A DNA stretch of 64,000 nucleotides from Gordonibacter urolithinfaciens (GTDB taxonomy: Bacteria; Actinomycetota; Coriobacteriia; Coriobacteriales; Eggerthellaceae). The notes beneath the pieces are model-generated. The model was not told where the DNA came from. It saw only the letters and a program-made list of their open reading frames with translations, and did not search any database. Of this stretch, positions 50,515 through 63,227 are shown piece after piece. The position numbers were made by a program, and so were the translations under genes. Numbering within the stretch: position 1 is the first letter of the stretch; each line of letters starts with the position of its first letter. The stretch lies in contig NZ_LT900217.1 of the NCBI RefSeq assembly GCF_900199375.1, positions 62,001 to 126,000 on the forward strand, read 5' to 3'.

Positions 50515-51231
50515 CTAGCATCGGCGACCCGCAGCTGCGCAGAGCACCATTATGCCCCGATCGACCCCACCGCATCCGCGGCCAAAGCGGCCGTGCGGGC
50601 GTAGAGGTCGTCGGCGCCGGCAGCCAGCAGGCGGGCGGCCCTCGGCAGCCAGCAGGCGGGCGGCCCTCGGCAGCCACGCGTTCGCATGCTCGCGGGCGAA
50701 CTGGCGCAGCAGCTCCGACGCGCGCTCGGACGCCGCCGGGTCCTCCCCCGCCGCTTCGGCGGCCGCGCGAGCCAAAAACGCCATGAACGCGAGCTCGGCG
50801 GCCAGCGAGTCGGGGCGCAGGCTGCCCACGGCAGGGCCGAAGCCCGCGAGCGCCCGGTAGTCGAAGCCGACGGCCCGGTAGCACCTCAGCACGTGGTCGG
50901 CCCGGGCGCCCGAGACGGGCGCGTACCGCACACGGCCCTCCTCCTCGGCCGCGCCGCGCACGCTGCACTCGGAGAGCGGCACGTAGAGCGGGCCCGTCGG
51001 CACGAAGAAGCGCTCGCTGTAGCGCTGCCGCAGCGCCTCGTCGGCAACGACGCCGTCGAGGCGGCCGTCGCCAAGCGCCCGCGCCACGCGGGCCACGTCG
51101 TCCACGATCTGCGCGGAGGGCTCGTTCAGGAACGCCTCGGCGCAGGCCTCGGCGACGACGGCGAAGCCTTGCAGCTCTTCGGGCGAGCGCGCCTTCGGAG
51201 CATCCTTCATGATCGGCATCGGGTCAGCCAT
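50515..51231 (-). pseudogene. TorD-like chaperone, module 1, C-terminus frameshifted
   Basis: Cytosolic TorD/DmsD-family chaperone that would load the Mo cofactor and proofread the Tat signal of the catalytic subunit. Residues 1-195 match the module 2 copy almost exactly (PEELQGFAVVAEACAEAF, ERFFVPTGPLYVPLSECSV). A 25-bp tandem duplication (50618-50642 and 50643-50667) shifts the frame, so the last 25 residues (DLYARTAALAADAVGSI in the intact copy) are replaced by an Arg/Gly-rich tail. The N-terminal fold is complete, so partial function is possible. AGGGAGG precedes the ATG at 51231. Confidence 0.85.
50558..51186. repeat. Near-identical torD repeat, copy 1
   Basis: Matches 57685-58288 at all but five bases that I count, apart from one extra 25-bp tandem unit (629 versus 604 bp). 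Identity stops sharply at both ends, within the two torD genes. Confidence 0.9.
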
Positions 51232-51246
51232 ATTCCAGCCGCCTCC

Positions 51247-52107
51247 CTAGGCGAACATCGGCACGGCAGCCATGATGACGGCGTAGCGGAATGCGAAACC
51301 GCCCGTCAGGATGCACACGGCCTCGGCGACGCCAAACCAGCTGGGAGCCGCCTCGCCCTTGCGGGTACGCACGAGGGCCAGGGCAAACGGCGCCGCGAGG
51401 CCCACAGCCACGACCCCGCCCCAGAACACGACGGCATTGCTGCCGGTGAGTAGGTTCGCTACCGACTGGATCGCGTACGGAGCCGCACTGCCCGTCGTAG
51501 CGGACACCACCACCAGAAGCGCCACAAGCGCCACTACCTCGAGCACGGGCAGGACGAGCGCCACCTTGCCCGTCCAAGCAGGCAGCGCCGTGCCGCTCGG
51601 CAGCGTAAAGCGAGCTGCCAGCGCGTAGGCGGCGTAGCCCGTGTAGGCTGCCGACACCACGAACGCCACCGGCAGCACGGCCAGGTTCCACAGCGGGAAC
51701 GCCGGCGCGGTGCTCAGGAGCACGCCCGTGTACAGCGACACGCCCACGCCCAACACGGCCGTCACCACCTCCAGCGCGCGCGGCACGTTGCGCTTCAGCA
51801 CCAGCAGCACGCCACAGACGAACGCACCCACCAAAAACAGGCTGATGAGCACCACGCCCCAGGTCATGACAGACCCGAAGTTGCCCAGCAGGTTGAAGTA
51901 GCGCAGCGGGTTCAACAGACCCCCGCGCGCGTCGACCGCCAAGATGAGCGCGCCGAGCGCCACGGCGACGAACGCCACCGCCACGCCCGCGAGCTTTGCT
52001 TTCCTCGACGCATCATCCCTGCCTGCAGCCAGCACCGCGAACACGAACGTCCACGCGCCCATGCCGGCGAAGAACAAGTCGCAGGCGACTATGCCGTCCC
52101 AAACCAT
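51247..52107 (-). CDS. NrfD/DmsC-like membrane anchor subunit, module 1
   Basis: 286 residues, about eight membrane helices, from MVWDGIVACDLFFAGMGAW. Quinol-interacting anchor of a Mo oxidoreductase (PsrC/NrfD family). NPLRYFNLLGNFGSVMTWGV is the conserved loop region. Its ATG directly follows the subunit B stop (TAAATG). Confidence 0.9.
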   Translation of the reverse strand: MVWDGIVACDLFFAGMGAWTFVFAVLAAGRDDASRKAKLAGVAVAFVAVALGALILAVDARGGLLNPLRYFNLLGNFGSVMTWGVVLISLFLVGAFVCGVLLVLKRNVPRALEVVTAVLGVGVSLYTGVLLSTAPAFPLWNLAVLPVAFVVSAAYTGYAAYALAARFTLPSGTALPAWTGKVALVLPVLEVVALVALLVVVSATTGSAAPYAIQSVANLLTGSNAVVFWGGVVAVGLAAPFALALVRTRKGEAAPSWFGVAEAVCILTGGFAFRYAVIMAAVPMFA

Positions 52108-52737
52108 TTACTGCCTCCCCTCGTAGGGCGTCTTCACGTTGCCGCCCTTATGCACGGCGCTCACGCGCTCCATGCCCATCATCTTGTCCAAGCCCAGGTA
52201 GTGTACCGACGGGTTCATGCCCATATCGGCGAAGAGCACCTGGGCGTCGTCCGCCTCGGCAAGCCGTTTGGATACGTCGCTCTCCGGATCGTTCAAGTCG
52301 CCGAACAGGCGCGCGTGGGTGACGCACGTTCCTGCGCAAGCGGGCAGCAGGCCGTTTGCCGTGCGGTGGTGGCAGAACGTGCACTTGTGCACATCGCCCG
52401 TCTCGTCGTTGGTGTAGCGCACGCCGAAGGGACAGGCGGCCATGCAGTATTTGCAGCCGATGCACTTGCTCACGTCGATCTGCACCGTGCCGTCGTCGGC
52501 AACGTAGCTGGCGCCGGTCGGGCACACGCTCACGCACGCCGGGTTCTCGCAGTGGTTGCACAGCTTGGGCAAATTGGCGCGGCTGATGCGTCCGCCGTCG
52601 TCAACATCCCAGCTCTCCACCCACGTGTTGAATTTGGTGAGGGGTACGTCGTTCTCCTGCTTGCAGGCCACCGCGCACGCATTGCAGCCGATGCAGAGCG
52701 CGAGGTCAACGACCGTGCCCAATCTCTGTTTGCTCAT
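52108..52737 (-). CDS. Four-cluster ferredoxin subunit, module 1
   Basis: 209 residues with four [4Fe-4S] Cys groups: CIGCNACAVACK, CNHCENPACVSVCP, CIGCKYCMAACP and CTFCHHR...CAGTC. Moves electrons between anchor and catalytic subunit (DmsB/PsrB type). AAGGAGG overlaps the end of the catalytic gene. Confidence 0.95.
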   Translation of the reverse strand: MSKQRLGTVVDLALCIGCNACAVACKQENDVPLTKFNTWVESWDVDDGGRISRANLPKLCNHCENPACVSVCPTGASYVADDGTVQIDVSKCIGCKYCMAACPFGVRYTNDETGDVHKCTFCHHRTANGLLPACAGTCVTHARLFGDLNDPESDVSKRLAEADDAQVLFADMGMNPSVHYLGLDKMMGMERVSAVHKGGNVKTPYEGRQ

Positions 52738-52749
52738 GGTAGGTCCTCC

Positions 52750-55700
52750 TTACGCTTTCTCGATCTTGAACATGCCGCCGGAGCGCCCGGGGCACGAGGC
52801 GTCGTTGTCGGCGATGATGCCCATCACGCCGTCCACCGTGACGGTGGGGTCAAGCATCGTGGTGACGAAGGTGCCGGTGGCGATGGCGGGATTGCCCTTC
52901 ACCAGCGTGCCATCCACCTCGACATCCTGGGCGCCGTAGGCTCGGTGCCCGTAGCCAAACGACGAGCTGAACGCGCCCTTCACCTGACCAGCGCGCACCA
53001 TGGCCTCGCCCGTGCTCACATCTCCCAAGGGGTTCGTGATCTTCACCGTGTCGCCGTCGGCAATGCCGAGGGCGGCGGCGTCCTCCTCGTTGATCTCAAC
53101 GTAGTTGTGATCGCACAAATCGCGCATGATGGGGCTGTTCGCCAGCATCGACACCGAGCGGAAACGGGGCTTGTGCTCAGAGGCCGTGAAGGGGAATTCC
53201 TCGGTCGAGAACCGGTCGGTCATGCGCGACAGGTCGCTGAACGTCTGGGGACGGTAGTGCAGCGTGCCGGGCAGACGCTCGCCGGAATAGCAGTTCTTCG
53301 TCAGCGCGCGCTTCTCGCTGTACACGAAGGCACAGTAGTTGTCCTTGTACCACTTGCTACGGCCACCGTCGCCGTAGATATAGGACATGGGCCAGTAGCG
53401 CCCGCCGCGCGAGAGCACGCTCTGCACCTTCGGCCACTCCGCCTCCGACACTGCGGCCGAAAACGCCTCGGGCAGCTCGTCGAGGCCCTGCAGGCGCGCT
53501 TCCTCGGCGGAGAGGTCCTCCACCGGCGTCTCGCCGTAGGCAAGGTTCGCCACCGCTTTCAAGTAATAGTCACACGCGTCGTTGAGCGGCCAGGCGTTGC
53601 CGTCGACATCCTTGATAGCGCCCTCTCCCCAACCGGGCAGCTCGCATGCCTTGGCCACATCTGTGAGGAATGCCTCCCAGCTGGCATGGCGTCCGTCGGC
53701 CAACTCGATGCTCTCAGGCACCTTCACCTGCCAGCGCACCGTGGAGCCGTAGCCGGTGAAGGCGGTGCCCACCTGGGGCACGCCGAAGCTCTCGTACTGG
53801 CTCACATCGGGCACGATGTAGTCGGCGTACTGAGTGCCCTCGCCCACCACCAGGTCGCATGCGATGTGCAGCGGCACGTACTCCGGGTCCTTGAAGCGCT
53901 CGATCACTTCGTCGCGCATGGCACCCGGCGTGGCCTGCAGCACGTTGTTCATCCACGTGGTGAGGATCTTCGCCTGATAGGGATAGCGGTTGACGATAGA
54001 CATGAGCGTCTGTGCGTCGGAAAGCGGCGCGTTGGGATACCAAGGCAGCGCAGGGGTGGGATCCTTCTCGCCGGCCGCCACGCGATTCTTGTACTCGGCC
54101 GTGGTCTCCCACGCCTTACCGGTACGGGAGATGGCGGCGGCGTTCTTGGCCGACACGTCGGGCTTGCCCGCAATGTCGCCCAGCTTGTAGCGGGCGCCGT
54201 TGCCCATGGCCACGGGCGTCATGCTGTACGGCACGTTGCCGCCGGTCATCTGGTTCGATCCGATGAGGGCGCGCAGTGCCACCGTGCCCATGGAGGCGTC
54301 CAAACCGTTGACCGCGATGCAGGAGCCGCCGTTGGCCCAGATGCTCGTCTTCACGCCATGGTCGGTGTACTCGTACGCGATGCGCTCAAGCTCATCTACC
54401 GGGATGCCCGTGATCTCGGCGTACTCGTCCATGGTGTAGGCGCTCACCGTGTCTTTGAGCATGAGGAAGCCCGTGCGCACCTTCACGCCGTTGACCTCGC
54501 CCTCGTACTCGAGCACGCCCGCGGCGCTCTGCGAATGCGCGCTGGGCGCGTTCGTGGCTGCGTCGATGACCACGTACTGCTCGACAGGCTTGCCGGTCTT
54601 ATCCTTGACGTCCGGCACCTCAATGCCGGCGTCCGCCGCGCGCATGAGCTTGCGGAAGTTCGGATGGGACTCGTCCACGATAACCAAGTAGCTGGCGTTC
54701 GTGTGCGACGCGTAGCCACCCGCCACCGCCGCCTCCTGGTTCGGAAACGCGAGGAACTGCGCGTTGTGGCGCTTGTTGTCGATAATGCTGCGCGTGAGGG
54801 CCGAGGCGAACGCGCCGTTCGTGGCCGGCTTGATAGGCACCCAGTTGATGCCGGGAATGGTGGGCGTGACCGCACCGTTTGCAAGCGTGGGATCGATGAC
54901 GTCGATCTTGAGCTTGCCGGCAGCAAGGTTTTTCGTGGTGCGCTTGGCCGAGCTCTGGAAGTTGATGCCACTCGCACCAGGGAAGCCACCGAACCACAGC
55001 GCGTACTCGGCCTCTTCCGGGTCGGGCATCATAGTGTTCACGGCTTCTTGCAGAAGCGATCCGGCCCCGTTGGCACCAGCGCAGCTCGACACGTGGCCGT
55101 ACTGGTTGAGCGTGCCGAACGTGGCGGCAAAGCGGCTGCTGAACGCACCGCGGCCGTCGGCGCGACCGCCGAGCATGACAAGCTGGTTCGACACGGGGCC
55201 GAGGTCGGGCTGTTCGGGGTTCATGGGCGTCTTGGTATCGCAGAGAGCCTTGAAGCCCTCGATGTCGCGATCCTCACCAATCTCGGCGAACAGCTTGCCG
55301 CCCTCCGTAACTTCTTTAATAAGCTGGTCCCAGCCGATGGCCTTCCATTTGCCCTCACCGCGGGCACCGGCGCGCTTGAGCGGCACGGTGATACGGTCGG
55401 GCTGGCTCACGGCGTCGAGCGTGCCGTTGCCGCGGCCGCACACAGTGCCGTGCAGTTGGTTACCCTTGCCGTGTGCGTAGCTCATCGAGCGGTACGCTTC
55501 CTCGAGCGGCTCCTCGTGATTCAAGTACGGATACGCGCACGCAGGGTTGTAAGGGTTGCCACCCACACCCAGCACGCGCCCGGTGGCACGATCGAGCTTC
55601 ACGCGGTTGCCACACGAGCTGTAGCAGCCCACGCAACCCGAGTAGCGCACGATAACGTCCTCATTGACAGCCACGTCGCCGGTCTTGGGATCAACCTTTG

Positions 55701-55857
55701 CCTCGATGGGCTTACCGGTTGCCGGTGCCGGAAACGCGGTGTCTGCCGCGATGGCTGCCGAAGCCTGCGATCCTAGGCCCACGCCTGCGAGCGAGAGCGC
55801 GCCAAGCGCACCCATCGCCCCGACGAACGTGCGTCGATCTATGTTCATTTCCCCCAT
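52750..55857 (-). CDS. Tat-exported molybdopterin reductase catalytic subunit, module 1 (Cys form)
   Basis: 1035 residues. The Tat signal (NIDRRTFVGAMGALGALSLA, Arg8-Arg9) sends the folded enzyme across the membrane. An N-terminal [4Fe-4S] site (C75, C78, C82, C140: CVGCYSSCGN and GTVCGRGNG) precedes the molybdopterin domains. Cys259 in YGHVSSCAGANGAG is at the place of the metal ligand, so it belongs to the Cys-ligated TtrA/PsrA/ArrA-like branch rather than to Ser-type DMSO reductases. The substrate cannot be read from sequence: S-oxides, tetrathionate-like anions or, given the Eggerthella setting, plant or host phenolics dehydroxylated by related enzymes. AGGAGGAGGA precedes the ATG at 55857. 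Confidence 0.93.
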   Translation of the reverse strand: MGEMNIDRRTFVGAMGALGALSLAGVGLGSQASAAIAADTAFPAPATGKPIEAKVDPKTGDVAVNEDVIVRYSGCVGCYSSCGNRVKLDRATGRVLGVGGNPYNPACAYPYLNHEEPLEEAYRSMSYAHGKGNQLHGTVCGRGNGTLDAVSQPDRITVPLKRAGARGEGKWKAIGWDQLIKEVTEGGKLFAEIGEDRDIEGFKALCDTKTPMNPEQPDLGPVSNQLVMLGGRADGRGAFSSRFAATFGTLNQYGHVSSCAGANGAGSLLQEAVNTMMPDPEEAEYALWFGGFPGASGINFQSSAKRTTKNLAAGKLKIDVIDPTLANGAVTPTIPGINWVPIKPATNGAFASALTRSIIDNKRHNAQFLAFPNQEAAVAGGYASHTNASYLVIVDESHPNFRKLMRAADAGIEVPDVKDKTGKPVEQYVVIDAATNAPSAHSQSAAGVLEYEGEVNGVKVRTGFLMLKDTVSAYTMDEYAEITGIPVDELERIAYEYTDHGVKTSIWANGGSCIAVNGLDASMGTVALRALIGSNQMTGGNVPYSMTPVAMGNGARYKLGDIAGKPDVSAKNAAAISRTGKAWETTAEYKNRVAAGEKDPTPALPWYPNAPLSDAQTLMSIVNRYPYQAKILTTWMNNVLQATPGAMRDEVIERFKDPEYVPLHIACDLVVGEGTQYADYIVPDVSQYESFGVPQVGTAFTGYGSTVRWQVKVPESIELADGRHASWEAFLTDVAKACELPGWGEGAIKDVDGNAWPLNDACDYYLKAVANLAYGETPVEDLSAEEARLQGLDELPEAFSAAVSEAEWPKVQSVLSRGGRYWPMSYIYGDGGRSKWYKDNYCAFVYSEKRALTKNCYSGERLPGTLHYRPQTFSDLSRMTDRFSTEEFPFTASEHKPRFRSVSMLANSPIMRDLCDHNYVEINEEDAAALGIADGDTVKITNPLGDVSTGEAMVRAGQVKGAFSSSFGYGHRAYGAQDVEVDGTLVKGNPAIATGTFVTTMLDPTVTVDGVMGIIADNDASCPGRSGGMFKIEKA

Positions 55858-55925
55858 TCTTCCTCCTCCTAAGATATTCGGGGTTTTCCAAGCGCAGATT
55901 CTAGGAGAGCAGAAAAGCGGGCACA

Positions 55926-56011
55926 TCACCTAGTCGAGGGATATTGATGCGGACAAGCCGTGTTTTCTGCCTCACCTGATCGAGTGATATTTACATCGCA
56001 CCTGTTCAGAC
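55926..56011. promoter_or_regulatory. Three-box operator array, module 1
   Basis: Boxes TCACCTAGTCGAGGGAT (55926-55942), TCACCTGATCGAGTGAT (55972-55988) and the half-site GCACCTGTTCAGAC (55998-56011) lie in the divergent gap. Start-to-start spacings are 46 and 26 bp. The same array, with 45 and 27 bp, precedes module 2. Confidence 0.75.
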
Positions 56012-56047
56012 AATCATTACCCTCATTGTCAGACAATGGTTCCCGTC

Positions 56048-56074
56048 AGGGCACCGGGGCCGGTGCCCTATAAT
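56048..56074 (+). promoter_or_regulatory. luxR1 promoter with embedded palindrome
   Basis: TATAAT (56069-56074) lies 17 bases before the ATG. It abuts a perfect palindrome AGGGCACCGG-GG-CCGGTGCCCT (56048-56069) in the spacer region, a likely repressor or activator site, or a start-site hairpin. A GACAAT...ATTGTC pair lies further upstream. Confidence 0.55.
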
Positions 56075-56091
56075 CTTCGCCGGGAGGAAAC

Positions 56092-57606
56092 ATGAGAGAA
56101 TACTGCGTCCGCTACAAATCGCTCTACTTGCGTGAGACCCTCGGTTTCGCGCTCTTTCTCGCTTGGGTGTTCTGCAGCCTGTTCGGCTGCGGCCTGGCGA
56201 GTTACGAGAATTCGCCCGTCGGCGTGACAACCGTGTACAATCTGGAGCACGTGTGGATGGTCAGCGGACTGTTCGAGGCGCTCGGAGGCCTGGCGGGGAT
56301 CGTGGCAGCTCGGTTCCACCCGGCGCCCGACCGGCTGCTGCACGGCCGCACGGTCGGGGTGCTGGCGCTCCTGTGCGCCGTGGCGGGCAACTACGTTACC
56401 ATGGTGGCCTGGGCCGACTTTCCCGGCCTATTCTGGCAGCTCTACCCTGTGGGAGGTGCGCTCACCGGCCTCGCCATCGCACTGTTCGTGGCGCTGTGGG
56501 GCGCACGGCTCGGTTCCTACGACGAGGCGTACACGGAGTTCGCCGTGCCGCTTTCGTTCACGCTCGCCTTCGCGCTGTACTTCGTGCTGCTGCTGACGAA
56601 ACAGGGGCACGAGCCCTTCTTCATAGCGCTTGCCGTCATGATAGCCGCCTCGGCATTCTTCGCGGTGCGCGAGCGCGCGGACTCGGCCGCGCCGGCCTGC
56701 ACGGCGCGGCGGGATGCTCCGTGGACGGACGGGCGGCAGGGTCTGCTCTCGTTCGCAGTGCTCGTGGTGGTGTCGTGGGTGCAGGTGGCCTTCTTCCGCA
56801 TCATCTCCACGCCCGAGCTCACCGGCGACCGCTTCACACACTACCTGCTGCCCTTCTCGTTCGCCTGCGTGCTCTCGCTCGTCATGTTCCTGCTGTGCCT
56901 GAGGATGTCGCGTTACCTGAACATCTCGCTGGCTTACCGCTGGAGTCTGCCGTTGTTCATGCTGAGCTATCTGCCCCTGTTCGCCGACTACGGCAATCCC
57001 GAGCTGCGCATGCTGGCCTACGCCATCAACTTCCTGGGCATGTTCGGCGTGCAGTTCGGCTGCTGGATAGGCATCTGCAAGCACCTGCACCGCTCGAACG
57101 GCGGCGCGCTGCGGCTGTTCGGCACCTATGCGCTGGCCGAGGGGATCGGCATCTTTGCCGGCTGCATCATCGGGCTGTACGTGATGGGATCGATGGACGA
57201 GCACGGCATGATGCAGGTGTCCATCGGGCTCATGGCCGCCGTCATATTCGCTGCTATGGTCACTGGGTTCAATCCCACTTGGGTGTTCAGCCGCCCGAGC
57301 GAGAGGCATGCGACGCAGGGTTCAGACCCCCTTGAGGGCACATCCGGCGCAGGCAGGCCGGACGCGCCGCCCTGCCTGCAAGAAGCTCGGACGCTGCAGG
57401 CGGCCTACGGACTCACGAATCGCGAGACGGACGTAGCCGTGCTGCTGCTGGAAGGCCGCAGCAGGCCGTTCATCCGCGACGAGCTCGTGGTGTCCATCAA
57501 CACGGTGAGCACGCACGTGCGCAGCATCTTCGCGAAGTGCGGCGTGCATTCCCAGCAGGAGCTCATGGTGCTCGCGCGCAATGCCCGCAGCGCCAACGAG
57601 GACTGA
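56092..57606 (+). CDS. Membrane-bound LuxR-family regulator, module 1
   Basis: 504 residues. Residues 1-400 form about 12 membrane helices in an MFS-like pattern (LGFALFLAWVFCSLFGCGL, VPLSFTLAFALYFVLLLTK). A linker and then a C-terminal LuxR HTH (LTNRETDVAVLLLEGRSR, INTVSTHVRSIFAKCGV) follow. In Eggerthella this architecture sits beside Mo-enzyme operons and acts as a substrate-responsive activator (established for catechol dehydroxylases). It is divergent from module 1, which it probably controls. GGGAGG precedes the ATG. Confidence 0.92.
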   Translation: MREYCVRYKSLYLRETLGFALFLAWVFCSLFGCGLASYENSPVGVTTVYNLEHVWMVSGLFEALGGLAGIVAARFHPAPDRLLHGRTVGVLALLCAVAGNYVTMVAWADFPGLFWQLYPVGGALTGLAIALFVALWGARLGSYDEAYTEFAVPLSFTLAFALYFVLLLTKQGHEPFFIALAVMIAASAFFAVRERADSAAPACTARRDAPWTDGRQGLLSFAVLVVVSWVQVAFFRIISTPELTGDRFTHYLLPFSFACVLSLVMFLLCLRMSRYLNISLAYRWSLPLFMLSYLPLFADYGNPELRMLAYAINFLGMFGVQFGCWIGICKHLHRSNGGALRLFGTYALAEGIGIFAGCIIGLYVMGSMDEHGMMQVSIGLMAAVIFAAMVTGFNPTWVFSRPSERHATQGSDPLEGTSGAGRPDAPPCLQEARTLQAAYGLTNRETDVAVLLLEGRSRPFIRDELVVSINTVSTHVRSIFAKCGVHSQQELMVLARNARSANED

Positions 57607-57676
57607 GCTCCCTTCCCCTTGGCTACCTGCCATCACGCGGCGAGCCGCCGGCAGGGATCCTTTCGCGAGGGACGGC

Positions 57677-58309
57677 CTACTCGGCGATCGACCCCACCGC
57701 ATCCGCGGCCAAAGCGGCCGTGCGGGCGTAGAGGTCGTCGTCGCCGGCAGCCAGCAGGCGGGCGGCCCTCGGCAGCCACGCGTTCGCATGCTCGCGGGCG
57801 AACTGGCGCAGCAGCTCCGACGCGCGCTCGGACGCCGCCGGGTCCTCCCCCGCCGCTTCGGCGGCCGCGCGAGCCAAAAACGCCATGAACGCGAGCTCGG
57901 CGGCCAGCGAGTCGGGGCGCAGGCTGCCCACGGCAGGGCCGAAGCCCGCGAGCGCCCGGTAGTCGAAGCCGACGGCCCGGTAGCACTTCAGCACGTGGTC
58001 GGCCTGGGCGCCCGAGACGGGCGCGTACCGCACACGGCCCTCCTCCTCGGCCGCGCCGCGCACGCTGCACTCGGAGAGCGGCACGTAGAGCGGGCTCGTC
58101 GGCACGAAGAAGCGCTCGCTGTAGCGCTGCCGCAGCGCCTCGTCGGCAACGACGCCGTCGAGGCGGCCGTCGCCAAGCGCCCGCGCCACGCGGGCCACGT
58201 CGTCCACGATCTGCGCGGAGGGCTCGTTCAGGAACGCCTCGGCGCAGGCCTCGGCGATGACGGCGAAGCCTTGCAGCTCTTCGGGCGAAAGGGGCGCTGC
58301 ATCGTCCAT
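57677..58309 (-). CDS. TorD-like chaperone, module 2 (intact)
   Basis: 210 residues, all-helical maturation chaperone for the Tat-exported catalytic subunit. ELQGFAVIAEACAEAF, ERFFVPTSPLYVPLSECSV and the intact C-terminal DLYARTAALAADAVGSI. The ATG at 58309 has GGAGG eight bases upstream; the frame extends further without homology. About 99% identical to the module 1 copy over 604 bp although the adjacent C and B genes differ strongly. Confidence 0.9.
   Translation of the reverse strand: MDDAAPLSPEELQGFAVIAEACAEAFLNEPSAQIVDDVARVARALGDGRLDGVVADEALRQRYSERFFVPTSPLYVPLSECSVRGAAEEEGRVRYAPVSGAQADHVLKCYRAVGFDYRALAGFGPAVGSLRPDSLAAELAFMAFLARAAAEAAGEDPAASERASELLRQFAREHANAWLPRAARLLAAGDDDLYARTAALAADAVGSIAE
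57685..58288. repeat. Near-identical torD repeat, copy 2
   Basis: Partner of 50558-51186; see there. No terminal inverted repeats or target duplication are seen, so recombination rather than transposition explains it. Confidence 0.9.
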
Positions 58310-58452: not shown

Positions 58453-59394
58453 CTAGGCGAACACGACTGCCAGCGCCGCCATAATCACCAGGTAGCGCAG
58501 CATGAAGCCGCCCACGAGAACGCCGGCCTCGCCCACGAGGGCGAGCGCCCTGCCCGAGCCCGCCGCCGCGGCGGCGGAGCCGTCAGGGCCGGCGCCCGGC
58601 GCCGCATCGCCGGCGGCCGCGGCTGCCTTCGGCGCCCGGGCGCCGCGGTGCGCCGCGAGCTCCAGCGCGAACGGCAGCACCAGGCCCACTCCCACGAACC
58701 CGAGCCAGAACGGCACGGCGTAGGCGCCGGACACGAGGCTCGCCACCGAGGCGGCGCCGGCGGCGGCGCCCGATCCCGACGTGCCGGCCGTCACGCCCAG
58801 CAGCACCGCCACCAGCACCAGCTCGAGCACCGGCAGGACAAGCCCGGCCTTGGAGAGCAGCGGCAGCGCGCCGGCCTCCTCGGGGGCCGCGATGCGCGTG
58901 GCCAGCAGCACCGCGGCGATGCCCGTCGAGGCGGCCGACACCACGAACAGCACCGGCAGCACGGCCATGTTCCACAGCGGGAACGCGAGGCCCGCGTCGC
59001 CCAGCAGCACGCCGGTGTAGGCGGCCACGCACACGGCCAGCACCATGCCTGCGATGTCGAGCGCCTTCGGGGTGCGCTTCTTCACCAGCAGCAGCACCAA
59101 GTCGACGATGCTCACCGCCAAGAACACGCTCAAGATGATGACGCCCCAGGCCATGACGGAGTTCAGGTTGGACACCAGCATGAAGAAGCGCAGCGGGTTG
59201 GCGAACCCGGCCTTCGCGTCGATCACCAGCACGAGCGTGCCCACGGCCACGGCCACCGGCGCGATGATGAACGCGATCCTCTTCATGCGCGCCGCCGGCT
59301 TCTTCGCCCAGTTCGTGAGCGCGCCTAAGACGAACGCCCCCGCGCCCAAACCGGCCAGGAACAGGTAAATTGCTATGAATGCATCCCAAACCAT
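58453..59394 (-). CDS. NrfD/DmsC-like membrane anchor subunit, module 2
   Basis: 313 residues, about eight membrane helices, MVWDAFIAIYLFLAGLGAGAF start. It aligns with the module 1 anchor (NPLRFFMLVSNLNSVMAWGV) but carries a low-complexity Ala/Pro/Gly insert of about 40 residues (ARAPKAAAAAGDAAPGAGP) before the last helix. Starts 5 bp past subunit B. Confidence 0.9.
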   Translation of the reverse strand: MVWDAFIAIYLFLAGLGAGAFVLGALTNWAKKPAARMKRIAFIIAPVAVAVGTLVLVIDAKAGFANPLRFFMLVSNLNSVMAWGVIILSVFLAVSIVDLVLLLVKKRTPKALDIAGMVLAVCVAAYTGVLLGDAGLAFPLWNMAVLPVLFVVSAASTGIAAVLLATRIAAPEEAGALPLLSKAGLVLPVLELVLVAVLLGVTAGTSGSGAAAGAASVASLVSGAYAVPFWLGFVGVGLVLPFALELAAHRGARAPKAAAAAGDAAPGAGPDGSAAAAAGSGRALALVGEAGVLVGGFMLRYLVIMAALAVVFA

Positions 59395-59399
59395 CTCGA

Positions 59400-60023
59400 T
59401 CACCCCTCGTACGGCTTCATGACGTTGCCGCCGCGGTGGATGGCGGACGCGACCGGCATGGCCTCGGTTTCCTTGAGTCCGATATAGTACAGCGAGGGGT
59501 TGAGCCCCAGATCCTCGTACAGGACGTCGCCGCCGTCCGCCTCGGCCAGGCGCTTCGCGATGTCGCTCTCCGGGTCGTTCAGGTCGCCGAAGGTGCGGGC
59601 GTAGCCCACGCACGTGCCCACGCAGGCCGGCAGCAGGCCGACGCTCGTGCGGTGGTGGCAGAACGTGCACTTCTGCACCTCGCCGGACTCCACCTGGTAG
59701 CGCACCTGGTACGGGCACGCCGCCATGCAGTACTTGCACCCTATGCACTTGTCCTGGTCGATCTGCACCGTGCCGTCCTCAGCGCGGTAGCTCGCGCCCG
59801 TGGGGCACACCCGCACGCAGGGCGCGTCGGCGCAGTGGTTGCACTGCTTGGGAACGTTCGCCCGGGCGATGCGCCCGTCGGGCCGCTCCACGTCGAAGCT
59901 CTCGATCCAGGTGTTGAACGCGCCCAGGGGCACGTCGTTCTCGCGCTTGCAGGCCACGGTGCACGCGTTGCAGCCGATGCACAGGGATAGGTCAATCAGC
60001 ATGCCAAGCTTTCTCTCACTCAT
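59400..60023 (-). CDS. Four-cluster ferredoxin subunit, module 2
   Basis: 207 residues with four [4Fe-4S] groups (CIGCNACTVACK, CNHCADAPCVRVCP, CIGCKYCMAACP, CTFCHHR...CVGTC). Same role as the module 1 subunit, with which it is clearly homologous. The ATG at 60023 follows AAGGGGG. Confidence 0.95.
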   Translation of the reverse strand: MSERKLGMLIDLSLCIGCNACTVACKRENDVPLGAFNTWIESFDVERPDGRIARANVPKQCNHCADAPCVRVCPTGASYRAEDGTVQIDQDKCIGCKYCMAACPYQVRYQVESGEVQKCTFCHHRTSVGLLPACVGTCVGYARTFGDLNDPESDIAKRLAEADGGDVLYEDLGLNPSLYYIGLKETEAMPVASAIHRGGNVMKPYEG

Positions 60024-60038
60024 GATCGCTTACCCCCT

Positions 60039-63000
60039 TCATGCCTTCTCGATTTTGAACATGCCGCCGCAACGGCCGGGCGAGGCCGCGTCGTTCTCCG
60101 CGATGATGCTGATGACGTCGTCGCCGGTGACGCCCGTGACCGTGGGATCGAGCATCTGGTGGATGCGCACGCCCGCGGCGATGGCCGGGTCGCCCTTGGT
60201 GGTTTGGCCGTCCACCTCGATATCCTGGGCGCCGTAGTTCTGGTGCTCGTAGCCGAACGCCAGCGCGAACGCGCCTTTCGTCTGACCCGCGCGCACCATG
60301 GCGATGCCCTCGCTCACGTCGCCGAGCGGCGTGATGGCGCGCACCTTGTCGCCGTCCTTGATGCCCAGCTCGGCCGCGTCCTCACGGTTGAGCTCGATGT
60401 AGTTGTGGCTGCACAGGTCGCGCATGACCGGGCTGTTCGACAGCATGGAGATGGAGCGGAAGCGCGGCTTGTGCTCCGAGGCGCCGAACGGGTACTCCTC
60501 GCGCGAGAAGTGGTCCTCCATGGGAGAGAGGTCGGTGAACGTCTCGGGGTTGTAGCGCAGCGTGCCGGGCAGCTGCTTGCCCGAGTAGCAGTTCTTGTTC
60601 GTCGCGCGTTTCTCGCTGTAGAAATATGCCTGGTTCTCGTCCTTGTACCCGCGGCTGCGACGGCCGTCGGCGTCGTGCACGTAGGACATGGGCCAGTAGC
60701 GCCCGCCGCGCGACAGCACGTTCTGCACCTTGGGCCACTCCTCGTCGGATACGGCTGCCTTGAAGCTGTCGGGCAGCTCGTCGAGGCCCTGGAGCTGCGC
60801 TTCCCGCGCGTCGATGTCGGCCACCGGCTCCTCGGCGTAGGCCAGGTTCGCAACCGCCTTCAGATAGAAGTCGGCGGCGTCGCGCAGCGGCCACGCCTTG
60901 CCGTCCACGTCCTTGATGGCGCCCTCGCCCCATCCGGGCAGGCCGCACGCCTCGGCCACGTCGGCCAGGAAGGTTTCCCAGCTGGCATGGCGGCCGTCGT
61001 CCAGCTTCATGCTCTCCGGCTCCTTCACCTGCCAGCGCACGGTGGTGCCGTAGCCGGTGAACGTGGTGCCCGTAGTGGGCAGGCCGAAGCTCTCGTAGGG
61101 GGTGACGTCGGGCACGATGTAGTCGGCGTACTGGGCGTGCTCGCCTACGAACACGTCGCACACGATATGCAGCGGCAGCACCTCGGGGTCGCACAGGCGC
61201 TCCACGACCTCGTCGCGCATGGCGCCCGGCGTGGCCTGGATCGTGTTGCACATGAAGGAGGTGAGTATCTTAGCCTGGTAGGGATACTTGTTCACGATGG
61301 AGAGCAGCGCTTGGCTGTCAGAGGCCGCGCCGTTGGCGAACCAGGGCATGAGCGGCTTGGGGTCCTTCTCGCCGGCTGCGACCCGGTTCTTGTACTCGTC
61401 GGTCTTCTCCCAGGCCTTCACCGTGCGCGAGATGTAGCACGCGTTCTTCGTGGAGACGTCGGGCTTACCCTCGATGGCGCCCAGCTTGTAGCGCGCTCCG
61501 TTGCCGGCAGTGGTGGGAGCCGGGCTGTTGGGCGCGTTGCCGCCGATCATCTGGTTCGCACCCACGATGGCATGGAGCACCGCGGCGCCCATGACCGTGT
61601 CGATGCCGTTGACCGAGGCGGCCGAGCCGCCCTTGTGGCAGATGCCCACGCGGGTGCCGTGAGAGGTGTACTCCTTGGCAATGCGCTCCAGGTCCTCCAC
61701 GGACACGCCGGTGATCTCGGCGTACTCGTCCATGGTGTACTCGTTCACCGTCTCCGTGAGGAGCGAGAAGCCCGTGCGCACCTTCACGCCGTTCACCTCG
61801 CCCTCGTACTCGAGCGTGCCCTTGCTGCACGCGGAGTGCAGCGCCGGCTGCCCGGTGGCGGCGTCGATGACCACGTACTGCTCGACGGCCTTGCCGTCCT
61901 TGTCCTTCTCCTCGGGCGCATCGATGCCGGCGTCGGCCGCGCGCATGAGCTTGCGGTAGTTCGGATGGTTCTCGTCGACGATGACCAGGTACGTGGCGTT
62001 CGTATAGGCGCCGTATCCGCCCTCGACAGCCGCCTTCTGGGTGGTGAAGGAGATGGCGTCGGCGTTGTAGGTCTTGTCGGCGATGATCTTCTGCACGAGC
62101 GCGGCGCAGAACGCGGCGTTCGTGGCGGGTTTGATGGGTATCCAGTTGATGCCCGGGATGGTGGGCGTCACGGAACCGTTGGCGAGCGTGCAGTCGAGCA
62201 CGTCGATCTTGAGCTTCCCGGCTGCGAGGTTCTTGAGCGTGCGCTTGCCGGAGCTCTGGAAGTTGATCATGCTGCCGCCTGGGAAGGCGCCCAGCCAGAT
62301 TGCGTACTCGGCCTCCTCCGGCTCGGGGGTGAGGCCGTTCTTACCTGCTTGTGCCAGCGAACTCGCTGAATTGGCGACCGCTCAACTGCTGGCGTGCCCG
62401 TAGGCGTTGATCGTGCCGAACGTCGAGGCGAAGCGGCTGGAGAAGTTGCCGCGGCCGTCCGAGCGGCTGCCCAGCATAACCAGCTGGTTGGACACGGGGC
62501 CGAGGCCCGGCTCGTCGGGGTTCATCGGCGTTTTCGTGTCATGCAGCTCTTTGAAGCCCATGATCTCGCGGTCCTCGCCGATCTCGGCGAACAGCTTGCC
62601 GCCCTCCGTGACCTCCTTGATGAGCTGGTCCCAGCCGATGGCCTTCCACTTGCCCTCGCCGCGCTTGCCGGCACGCTTGAGCGGCACGGTGATGCGGTCG
62701 GGCTGGGTATAGCCGTCCAACGTGCCGTTGCCGCGGCCGCATACGGTGCCGCGCAGCTGGTTGCCCTTGCCGTTGGCGTAGCTCAAGGACTGGTACGCCT
62801 CGGTGAGGGGCGCCTCGAAGTCCAGGAACGGGTACGCGTCGGCGGGGTTGTAGGGGTTGCCGCCCACGCCCAGCACGCTGCCCGTCTCGCGGTCGAGCTT
62901 CACGCGGTTGCCGCACGAGCAGTAGCACCCCACGCAGCCCGAATAGCGCACGACCACGTCCTCGTTGACGGTCACGTCCCCGGTCTTCGGGTCGACGCTC

Positions 63001-63155
63001 GCCTCGACGGGCTTGCCCTTGCCCGGCGCCGGGAACGCCGACTCGGCCGCGACGGCCGCGGTCGGCTGGCCGCCGAGCGCGGCGCCGGCTACCGACAGCG
63101 CGCCCAGGGCGCCCATCGCGCCGACGAACGTGCGTCGGTCGATGCTCTTTCCCAT
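60039..63155 (-). CDS. Tat-exported molybdopterin reductase catalytic subunit, module 2 (predicted selenoprotein)
   Basis: Read with one TGA as selenocysteine, the product is 1038 residues, three more than the module 1 paralogue. Tat signal KSIDRRTFVGAMGALGAL, [4Fe-4S] Cys C74, C77, C81 and GTVCGRGNG. At codon 258 (62384-62382) the frame reads YGHASS-TGA-AVANSAS where module 1 has YGHVSSCAGANGAG, so TGA replaces the predicted Mo-ligand Cys. The frame then stays open for about 780 codons to the identical MFKIEKA end. A stem-loop fitting the bacterial SECIS rules follows the TGA. Alternative: a TGC-to-TGA nonsense mutation giving two fragments (62382-63155 and 60039-62381). I favour selenocysteine. 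The ATG at 63155 follows AAGGAGGAGGA. Confidence 0.82.
62353..62384 (-). promoter_or_regulatory. Predicted SECIS element with in-frame UGA
   Basis: From the UGA the RNA reads GCGGUCGCCAAUU, then CAGCG-AGUU-CGCUG and GC. The upper stem is five perfect pairs (or GCCA/UGGC plus GCG/CGC with a U-containing 5' bulge). The apical loop AGUU has G at position two and begins 18 nt after the UGA. The bacterial rule is G in the first two loop bases and 16-37 nt distance. Codons here (AGT, AAT, TCA, AGT, GCA, CAA, GCA, GGT) are unusually AT-ending for this genome. Confidence 0.75.
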
Positions 63156-63227
63156 ACTCTCCTCCTCCTTATGCCAGAGAACGAACACAACAGCCTTCGA
63201 GTCTAGGCGGGAGGGCGGCGCGCTTCA

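Follow-up and report, generated by a model that had tools for sequence, protein, structure and literature searches.

How did two neighboring enzyme modules, about 75% alike over most of their length, come to carry nearly the same chaperone gene? The question arises in a 64,000-nucleotide stretch of Gordonibacter urolithinfaciens DNA (contig NZ_LT900217.1, positions 62,001 to 126,000; hereafter the window) from a genome assembled as a single contig of 3.29 Mb, 99.97% complete. Two molybdoenzyme modules lie there in tandem on the minus strand, adjoining carAB. Each consists of a TorD-like chaperone, an NrfD-type membrane subunit (C), a 4Fe-4S subunit (B) and a molybdopterin oxidoreductase with a signal of the twin-arginine translocation (Tat) type (A), and each has a divergently transcribed LuxR-type regulator on the opposite strand. 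The chaperone genes, torD1 in module 1 and torD2 in module 2, are 7.1 kb apart in the same orientation. We propose that torD2 overwrote torD1 by gene conversion and that torD1 then changed and was frameshifted, a reading to which we give a probability of roughly 0.88.

A tract shared by two chaperone genes

A sequence-only reading of this DNA had counted five substitutions over 604 aligned bases of the two torD genes, had called the flanking C, B and A genes merely homologous, and had taken abrupt breaks of identity inside the coding regions to imply recent sequence transfer between the modules. Realignment gave the same count (99.2% identity), and the flanking genes are indeed only 75.7% (C), 75.5% (B) and 77.3% (A) identical at the DNA level. 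Identity between the torD genes stops about 15 codons past the torD1 start and two codons short of the old torD1 stop, with both breaks inside coding sequence, and the outer coordinates 50558 and 58288 are correct. Recent transfer is thus well supported, and its direction can now be assigned, from torD2 into torD1. The substituted positions (torD1/torD2) are 51156/58258, 50994/58096, 50903/58005, 50885/57987 and 50614/57741, and torD1 also contains a 25-bp tandem duplication that had gone unmentioned; the coding alignment of the two genes shows 98.6% DNA identity. Their longest exact run reaches 208 bases, whereas the longest in the A, B and C genes are 32, 27 and 18, which rules out chance as the source of the likeness. 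Searching the genome with torD1 DNA returned five matches: the gene itself, torD2 and three short pieces (34 to 48 bases). Only the two torD genes match at length, despite the 17 matches to the chaperone family PF02613 found there. A near-identical tract in paralogues whose flanks diverge on both sides is one of the patterns expected of gene conversion.

Such a pattern could also be an artifact, since repeats of 600 bp are difficult for short reads and it is the assembly alone that was examined. However, a collapsed repeat would yield identical copies, whereas these differ at five sites and by 25 bp and sit in unrelated flanks, and the genome is a single, almost complete contig; we consider an assembly error or repeat collapse very unlikely.

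Direction of the transfer

A search with torD2 DNA of 138 genomes of the family, one per species, found matches at E 1e-20 or better in 12, the nearest outside its own genome being in Gordonibacter sp. An230 (our label G092), at 95%. An230 has module 2 alone beside carAB. Compared with module 2 of the window, its A, B and C genes show 95.3, 95.7 and 89.5% identity, and its chaperone gene is nearer to torD2 (94.6%) than to torD1 (92.9%), so that the direction of transfer is torD2 to torD1. At the five differing sites An230 has the torD2 base every time. The genomes of Eggerthella sinensis (G035) and G105 carry an A1 ortholog at 85-86% DNA identity (90% in amino acids), and their chaperone genes are just 74-76% identical to torD1.

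The trees of the two genes disagree accordingly. For the approximately unbiased (AU) tests, 14 rows were taken per gene, out of 25 for A, 25 for C and 22 for the chaperone. In the trees TorD1 ends at residue 188, its tail removed, and in the AU-tested chaperone tree the 15 residues at its start are removed as well. The set of 22 chaperones does not include the module-2 chaperone of G. pamelaeae 7-10-1-b (NC_021021.1, G003), which is mostly N in the assembly, or those labeled An230_b and G000_x. The A tree groups A1 with E. sinensis and G105 (support 100/100), and a grouping of A1 with A2 is rejected (AU p 2.95e-121). In the chaperone tree TorD1 groups with TorD2 (97/93), and placing it with the module-1 chaperones of E. 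sinensis and G105 is rejected (AU p 2e-6). This conflict between the tract and the flanking A gene is again a mark of gene conversion. At 153 diagnostic sites torD1 has the module-2 base 119 times, the module-1 base 17 times and neither 17 times; eight of the 17 module-1 bases are common to torD2, and of the other nine, eight fall at the two ends and one inside. The module-1 base predominates at diagnostic sites of the A (458/633), B (113/144) and C (185/276) genes of module 1.

Replacement in register

The edges of the tract show what was replaced. TorD1 begins with MADPMPIMKDAPKAR and TorD2 with MDDAAPL, after which both read SPEELQ; at the other end the two are common up to VGSI, followed by AE and a stop in TorD2 and, in the same register, by GA and TAA in torD1. 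The 3' flank of torD2 matches An230 for about 70 bases, torD1 is without that match, and the sequence nearer carA continues on the torD1 side; this pattern indicates that an existing gene was overwritten, without duplication of a larger block. We also considered a block duplication of torD at the time when module 1 would have been inserted and ruled it out, as the torD2 flank common to An230 is absent after torD1. An in-register replacement that spares recipient sequence at its edges is a further feature of gene conversion. The edge sequence is presumably old torD1, though it is without a close match in E. sinensis or G105. One could instead suppose that module 1 had lost its chaperone earlier and that a torD2 copy was inserted beside C1, given that torD1 retains no recognizable core of its own. 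But the different short N-terminus and the gene's own stop codon flank the tract in register, and both genomes with a 90% A1 ortholog carry a chaperone directly after C1, which makes loss followed by insertion highly improbable.

For gene conversion, we envisage that in the recent past of the lineage ectopic (non-reciprocal) homologous recombination would have put about 604 bp of torD2 in place of the corresponding part of torD1, in register, leaving the first 15 or so codons and the last two codons with the stop untouched. Later, torD1 alone would have acquired five amino-acid changes and the 25-bp tandem duplication, which puts the gene out of frame ahead of a conserved D-D-x-Y-A stretch and leaves an unrelated tail in place of the last helix. 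We infer that the conversion took place inside one chromosome, and that the duplication came later because it is absent from torD2 and An230. Ectopic gene conversion is a known process, here seen in one assembly, and a tract of 604 bp is of ordinary length for bacteria when compared with the approximately 1000 nt fitted for tuf conversion in Salmonella strains without mismatch repair (PMC5485169). A scan for converted stretches in the A, B and C genes of the window gave best 20-site windows with permutation p of 0.03, 0.13 and 0.14, which are unconvincing. The event is not described among the matches listed in a literature search for gene conversion with TorD, molybdoenzyme operons, or Eggerthella, Gordonibacter and Coriobacteriia, as judged from titles and abstract starts of open-access papers.

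Several points weigh against this reading. One concerns the donor: torD2 keeps its own flank and agrees with An230 at all five sites, and a donor outside the cell with a near-identical torD2 is conceivable. The torD1 tract would then derive from torD2 DNA of another strain or species, through transfer and homologous replacement, and not from the copy 7 kb away; module number and order beside carAB vary between genomes, so modules come and go, and the five differences could be differences between strains. On the other side, the nearest sequence found is the genome's own torD2 (99.2%), with An230 next among the family genomes searched, at the lower identities given above, and we hold an outside donor to be quite unlikely. 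Other points concern the trees and the relatives. An230 and the two window copies are joined at 94/93, slightly under the tool's star. In G002, a genome of the same genus that carries module 2, identity is 90% for the A gene but just 76% between the chaperone gene and torD2, and at the five differing sites this genome has the torD2 base three times, the torD1 base once and another base once. The chaperone evolves fast, and the identity of torD1 to the module-1 chaperones is little below the 78-79% of C1. C1 itself is not clearly grouped with module-1 C genes, a grouping absent from the best tree and not rejected (AU p 0.41), and the frameshifted tail of torD1 influences the diagnostic sites at its 3' end. 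The replaced gene itself is gone, such that the argument rests on torD2-like sequence, and the event is known from one assembly of one strain.

Probable decay of the overwritten copy

The 25-bp unit is single in torD2 (57745-57769), and An230 and G002 likewise lack the duplication; the fragment from G. pamelaeae does not extend over the site. By shifting the frame, the duplication costs TorD1 the last 22 residues of TorD2 and gives it an unrelated tail of 42 instead. The lost part contains a D-D-x-Y-A-like stretch, and 20 of 22 chaperones have an acidic residue followed by [LF][YF] close to the end; the two that do not are TorD1 and the chaperone G087a. The G087a gene (L090:6169-6705, minus strand) likewise goes out of frame just before the D-D-x-Y-A stretch, possibly through an assembly error.

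All five substitutions are on the torD1 side, and each alters its amino acid in the torD2 frame. Five of five non-synonymous changes have a probability of 0.03 under the mix seen between torD2 and An230 (17/34) and of about 0.2 if changes are random (0.73 each), which makes them weak evidence for decay. The five changes, spread from 50614 to 51156, all fall at a coding-strand A, four being A to G and one A to C; A accounts for 63 of 603 bases, and five of five at A has a probability of 1.2e-5 if sites are evenly drawn (computed post hoc). For adenine-directed mutagenesis we found one partial reverse-transcriptase domain about 425 kb away (40.9 bits), and a template repeat was not looked for.

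Structure models point to damage in TorD1. The AlphaFold model of TorD2 has a mean predicted local distance difference test (pLDDT) score of 71.4, with block means of 86 and 93 in the last helix (192-209), a confidently predicted helix within the part that TorD1 has lost, and is mostly helical, with two short strands within a stretch scored under 50. That of TorD1 has a mean of 52.8, with residues 187-238 under 50, and the common part is scored lower too. Both models were built from the same five sequences in shallow alignments, and the fold search was weak: the top Foldseek matches of TorD2, AF0160 and DmsD, both have E 0.85. TorD1 (42.9 bits) and TorD2 (42.5 bits) pass the PF02613 gathering cut-off of 22.2 bits alike, and the domain ends ahead of the frameshift, so partial function of TorD1 is possible. 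Neither reaches the cut-off of the dimethyl sulfoxide reductase II chaperone model TIGR03482 (24 and 21.5 bits against 152.3). Taken together, torD1 looks to be decaying: given the frameshift caused by the duplication and the five altered amino acids, the chaperone encoded next to A1 is probably damaged.

Features of the locus

Coordinates are collected in Table 1. Tetrathionate reductase is the nearest named model for both A1 and B1. Both fall far under its cut-off, A1 scoring 580.6 bits against the TtrA model NF011567 where the curated cut-off is 1750, so substrate and family are not assigned. LuxR1 is probably membrane-bound, and on the basis of the GerE domain and gene position the module regulators may belong to a LuxR family of Coriobacteriia with 10-12 membrane helices (described in PMC9734109). 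Conversion was also considered for the 3' end of the LuxR1 gene, which has a 133-base match at 93% to a G. pamelaeae LuxR gene, and was set aside; the match is located in the DNA-binding end, and this end (the fourteenth 100-base block) is 78-96% alike across the nine LuxR pairs compared. The carA side varies among relatives (L038, L040, L044, L080): G002 and An230 have only module 2 there, G. pamelaeae has modules 3 and 2, and the present genome has modules 1 and 2, which suggests a place where such modules come and go. Module 1 may have been inserted in this lineage or lost in An230, and its junction, as judged by eye, is at a short imperfect repeat, GCAGGTAGCC / GCGGGTCGCC.

Table 1. Positions of the two modules and the conversion tract in the window, and of C genes in related genomes (locus label before the colon).
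Feature	Position	Strand	Remarks
torD1, TorD/NarJ-family chaperone, module 1	50515..51231	-	open reading frame, 238 codons at present; PF02613 E 6.4e-11; overwritten by torD2 sequence, frameshifted
Recipient conversion tract	50558..51186	-	604 paired bases and 25 inserted; 99.2% identical to 57685-58288
25-bp tandem duplication	50618..50667	.	two full copies (50618-50642, 50643-50667), then part of a third reaching 50676; causes the torD1 frameshift
Old torD1 stop TAA	50550..50552	-	in torD2 register, outside the present reading frame; minus-strand 50550-50642 translates as RAARLLAAGADDLYARTAALAADAVGSIGA and then the stop
C1, NrfD-type membrane subunit, module 1	51247..52107	-	PF03916 E 1.3e-25
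B1, 4Fe-4S subunit, module 1	52108..52737	-	PF13247 E 9.1e-25; TtrB model E 8.4e-61, under model cut-off
A1, molybdopterin oxidoreductase, Tat-type signal	52750..55857	-	TtrA model E 5.3e-174, under cut-off; 90% amino-acid orthologs in two genomes; Cys where A2 has TGA
LuxR1, module-1 LuxR-type regulator	56092..57606	+	GerE domain at 441-495
torD2, intact module-2 chaperone, donor	57677..58309	-	210 amino acids; 94.6% DNA identity to An230 module-2 chaperone gene
Donor conversion tract	57685..58288	-	from the alignment with the torD1 tract
C2, NrfD-type subunit, module 2	58453..59391	-	C1 homolog, 75.7% DNA identity
B2, 4Fe-4S subunit, module 2	59400..60023	-	B1 homolog, 75.5% DNA identity
A2, module-2 molybdopterin oxidoreductase	60039..63188	-	single reading frame with in-frame TGA at 62382-62384 (probable selenocysteine), Cys in A1
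C genes in conflict with A, G053a and G101	L083:7143-8042; L087:4470-5321		NrfD-type
C genes in conflict with A, E. sinensis and G. pamelaeae	L076:5292-6167; L040:12951-13829		NrfD-type, module 3

Possible exchanges in related genomes

Exchange of parts may not be confined to this strain, although the basis for saying so is partly draft genomes. G053a and G101 have A genes 92% identical and C genes of different types, and a grouping of those C genes is rejected (AU p 1e-54, both long rows); in module 3 of E. sinensis and G. pamelaeae, the C genes disagree with the A genes of the same modules (AU p 1e-5). These cases suggest that the membrane subunit has been swapped repeatedly. In G105, a short stretch of the module-3 A gene (L079:10102-13200) has module-1 bases at 11 of 20 diagnostic sites in aligned columns 599-673, a result reached in 0 of 5000 shuffles, and this stretch is perhaps another small conversion. 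A module-1-like block in the module-3 B gene of E. sinensis was set aside, the reference module-3 B gene of G. pamelaeae reading with two stops.

Probable selenocysteine and the possible sharing of a chaperone

The enzymes that the two chaperones adjoin appear to differ in kind. A2 has an in-frame TGA where A1 has Cys, a position that probably corresponds to the molybdenum ligand of related enzymes. Of 37 A-like matches, 21 contain a single TGA; among the 25 aligned A rows the same motif has TGA in 16 and Cys in 4, and the motif search left five unfitted, four of which carry TGA at a similar residue number. The genome encodes selA, selB and a selenocysteine tRNA, all above cut-off and together 28 kb beyond the window. 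Because many relatives have the TGA and this machinery is in the genome, A2 is probably a selenocysteine enzyme. A selenocysteine insertion sequence after the A2 TGA was not evident: the 45-nt fold has -10.3 kcal/mol (z 0.00 against shuffles), and there was no Rfam match.

System-specific chaperones are generally taken as matched to one enzyme, and the sequence-only reading had proposed one chaperone that can serve both A subunits. At best, such sharing would apply to TorD2. Between A1 and A2 the Tat signal differs at one residue in the 20 of IDRRTFVGAMGALGALS[L/V]AG, which takes in the twin-arginine and hydrophobic stretches, and this near-identity renders sharing plausible but goes no further. 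Relatives where no such conversion is seen have similar signals, and the similarity is therefore no result of conversion. If A1 is still matured, TorD2 may mature it too. Against simple sharing stands a reported tie between chaperone and enzyme, chaperone evolution being, by the title of PMC4464133, directed by enzyme association. The locus thus offers a natural swap as a test of matching, in which TorD2 would mature both a Cys enzyme and a probable selenocysteine enzyme, or A1 would do without a chaperone. It also suggests that assigning chaperones to enzymes by neighborhood alone is risky in gut bacteria with many such genes, as in this genome. It is tempting to speculate further that parts of Eggerthellaceae modules are exchangeable, that chaperone and anchor genes swap by recombination more readily than catalytic genes, that one chaperone matures selenocysteine and Cys enzymes alike, and that a surplus chaperone drifts, with slippage at the 25-bp repeat acting as a reversible switch of torD1, though as a whole this proposal is unlikely.

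Comparison with known systems

The event resembles three described systems and departs from each. As with the tuf genes of Salmonella (PMC5485169), a few hundred bases would have been replaced non-reciprocally between paralogues of the same chromosome, inside coding sequence; here, by contrast, identity between the operons drops to about 75% beyond the tract, and instead of staying near-identical the overwritten copy has been frameshifted. As in the concerted evolution of amoCAB and other operon copies (PMC6053082), paralogues of one genome that belong to an enzyme complex are nearer each other than to orthologs elsewhere, but here this holds for one module gene in one lineage, A and B keeping their own histories and C1 being ambiguous. 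As with the TorD, DmsD and NarJ chaperones (PMC4464133), the chaperone gene adjoins that of a molybdoenzyme and matches PF02613; in contrast to what the title of that study conveys, the chaperone beside A1 derives from the module of another enzyme. Two things add interest to this known process: the overwritten copy is frameshifted, and the event links an enzyme of the selenocysteine type with one of the Cys type.

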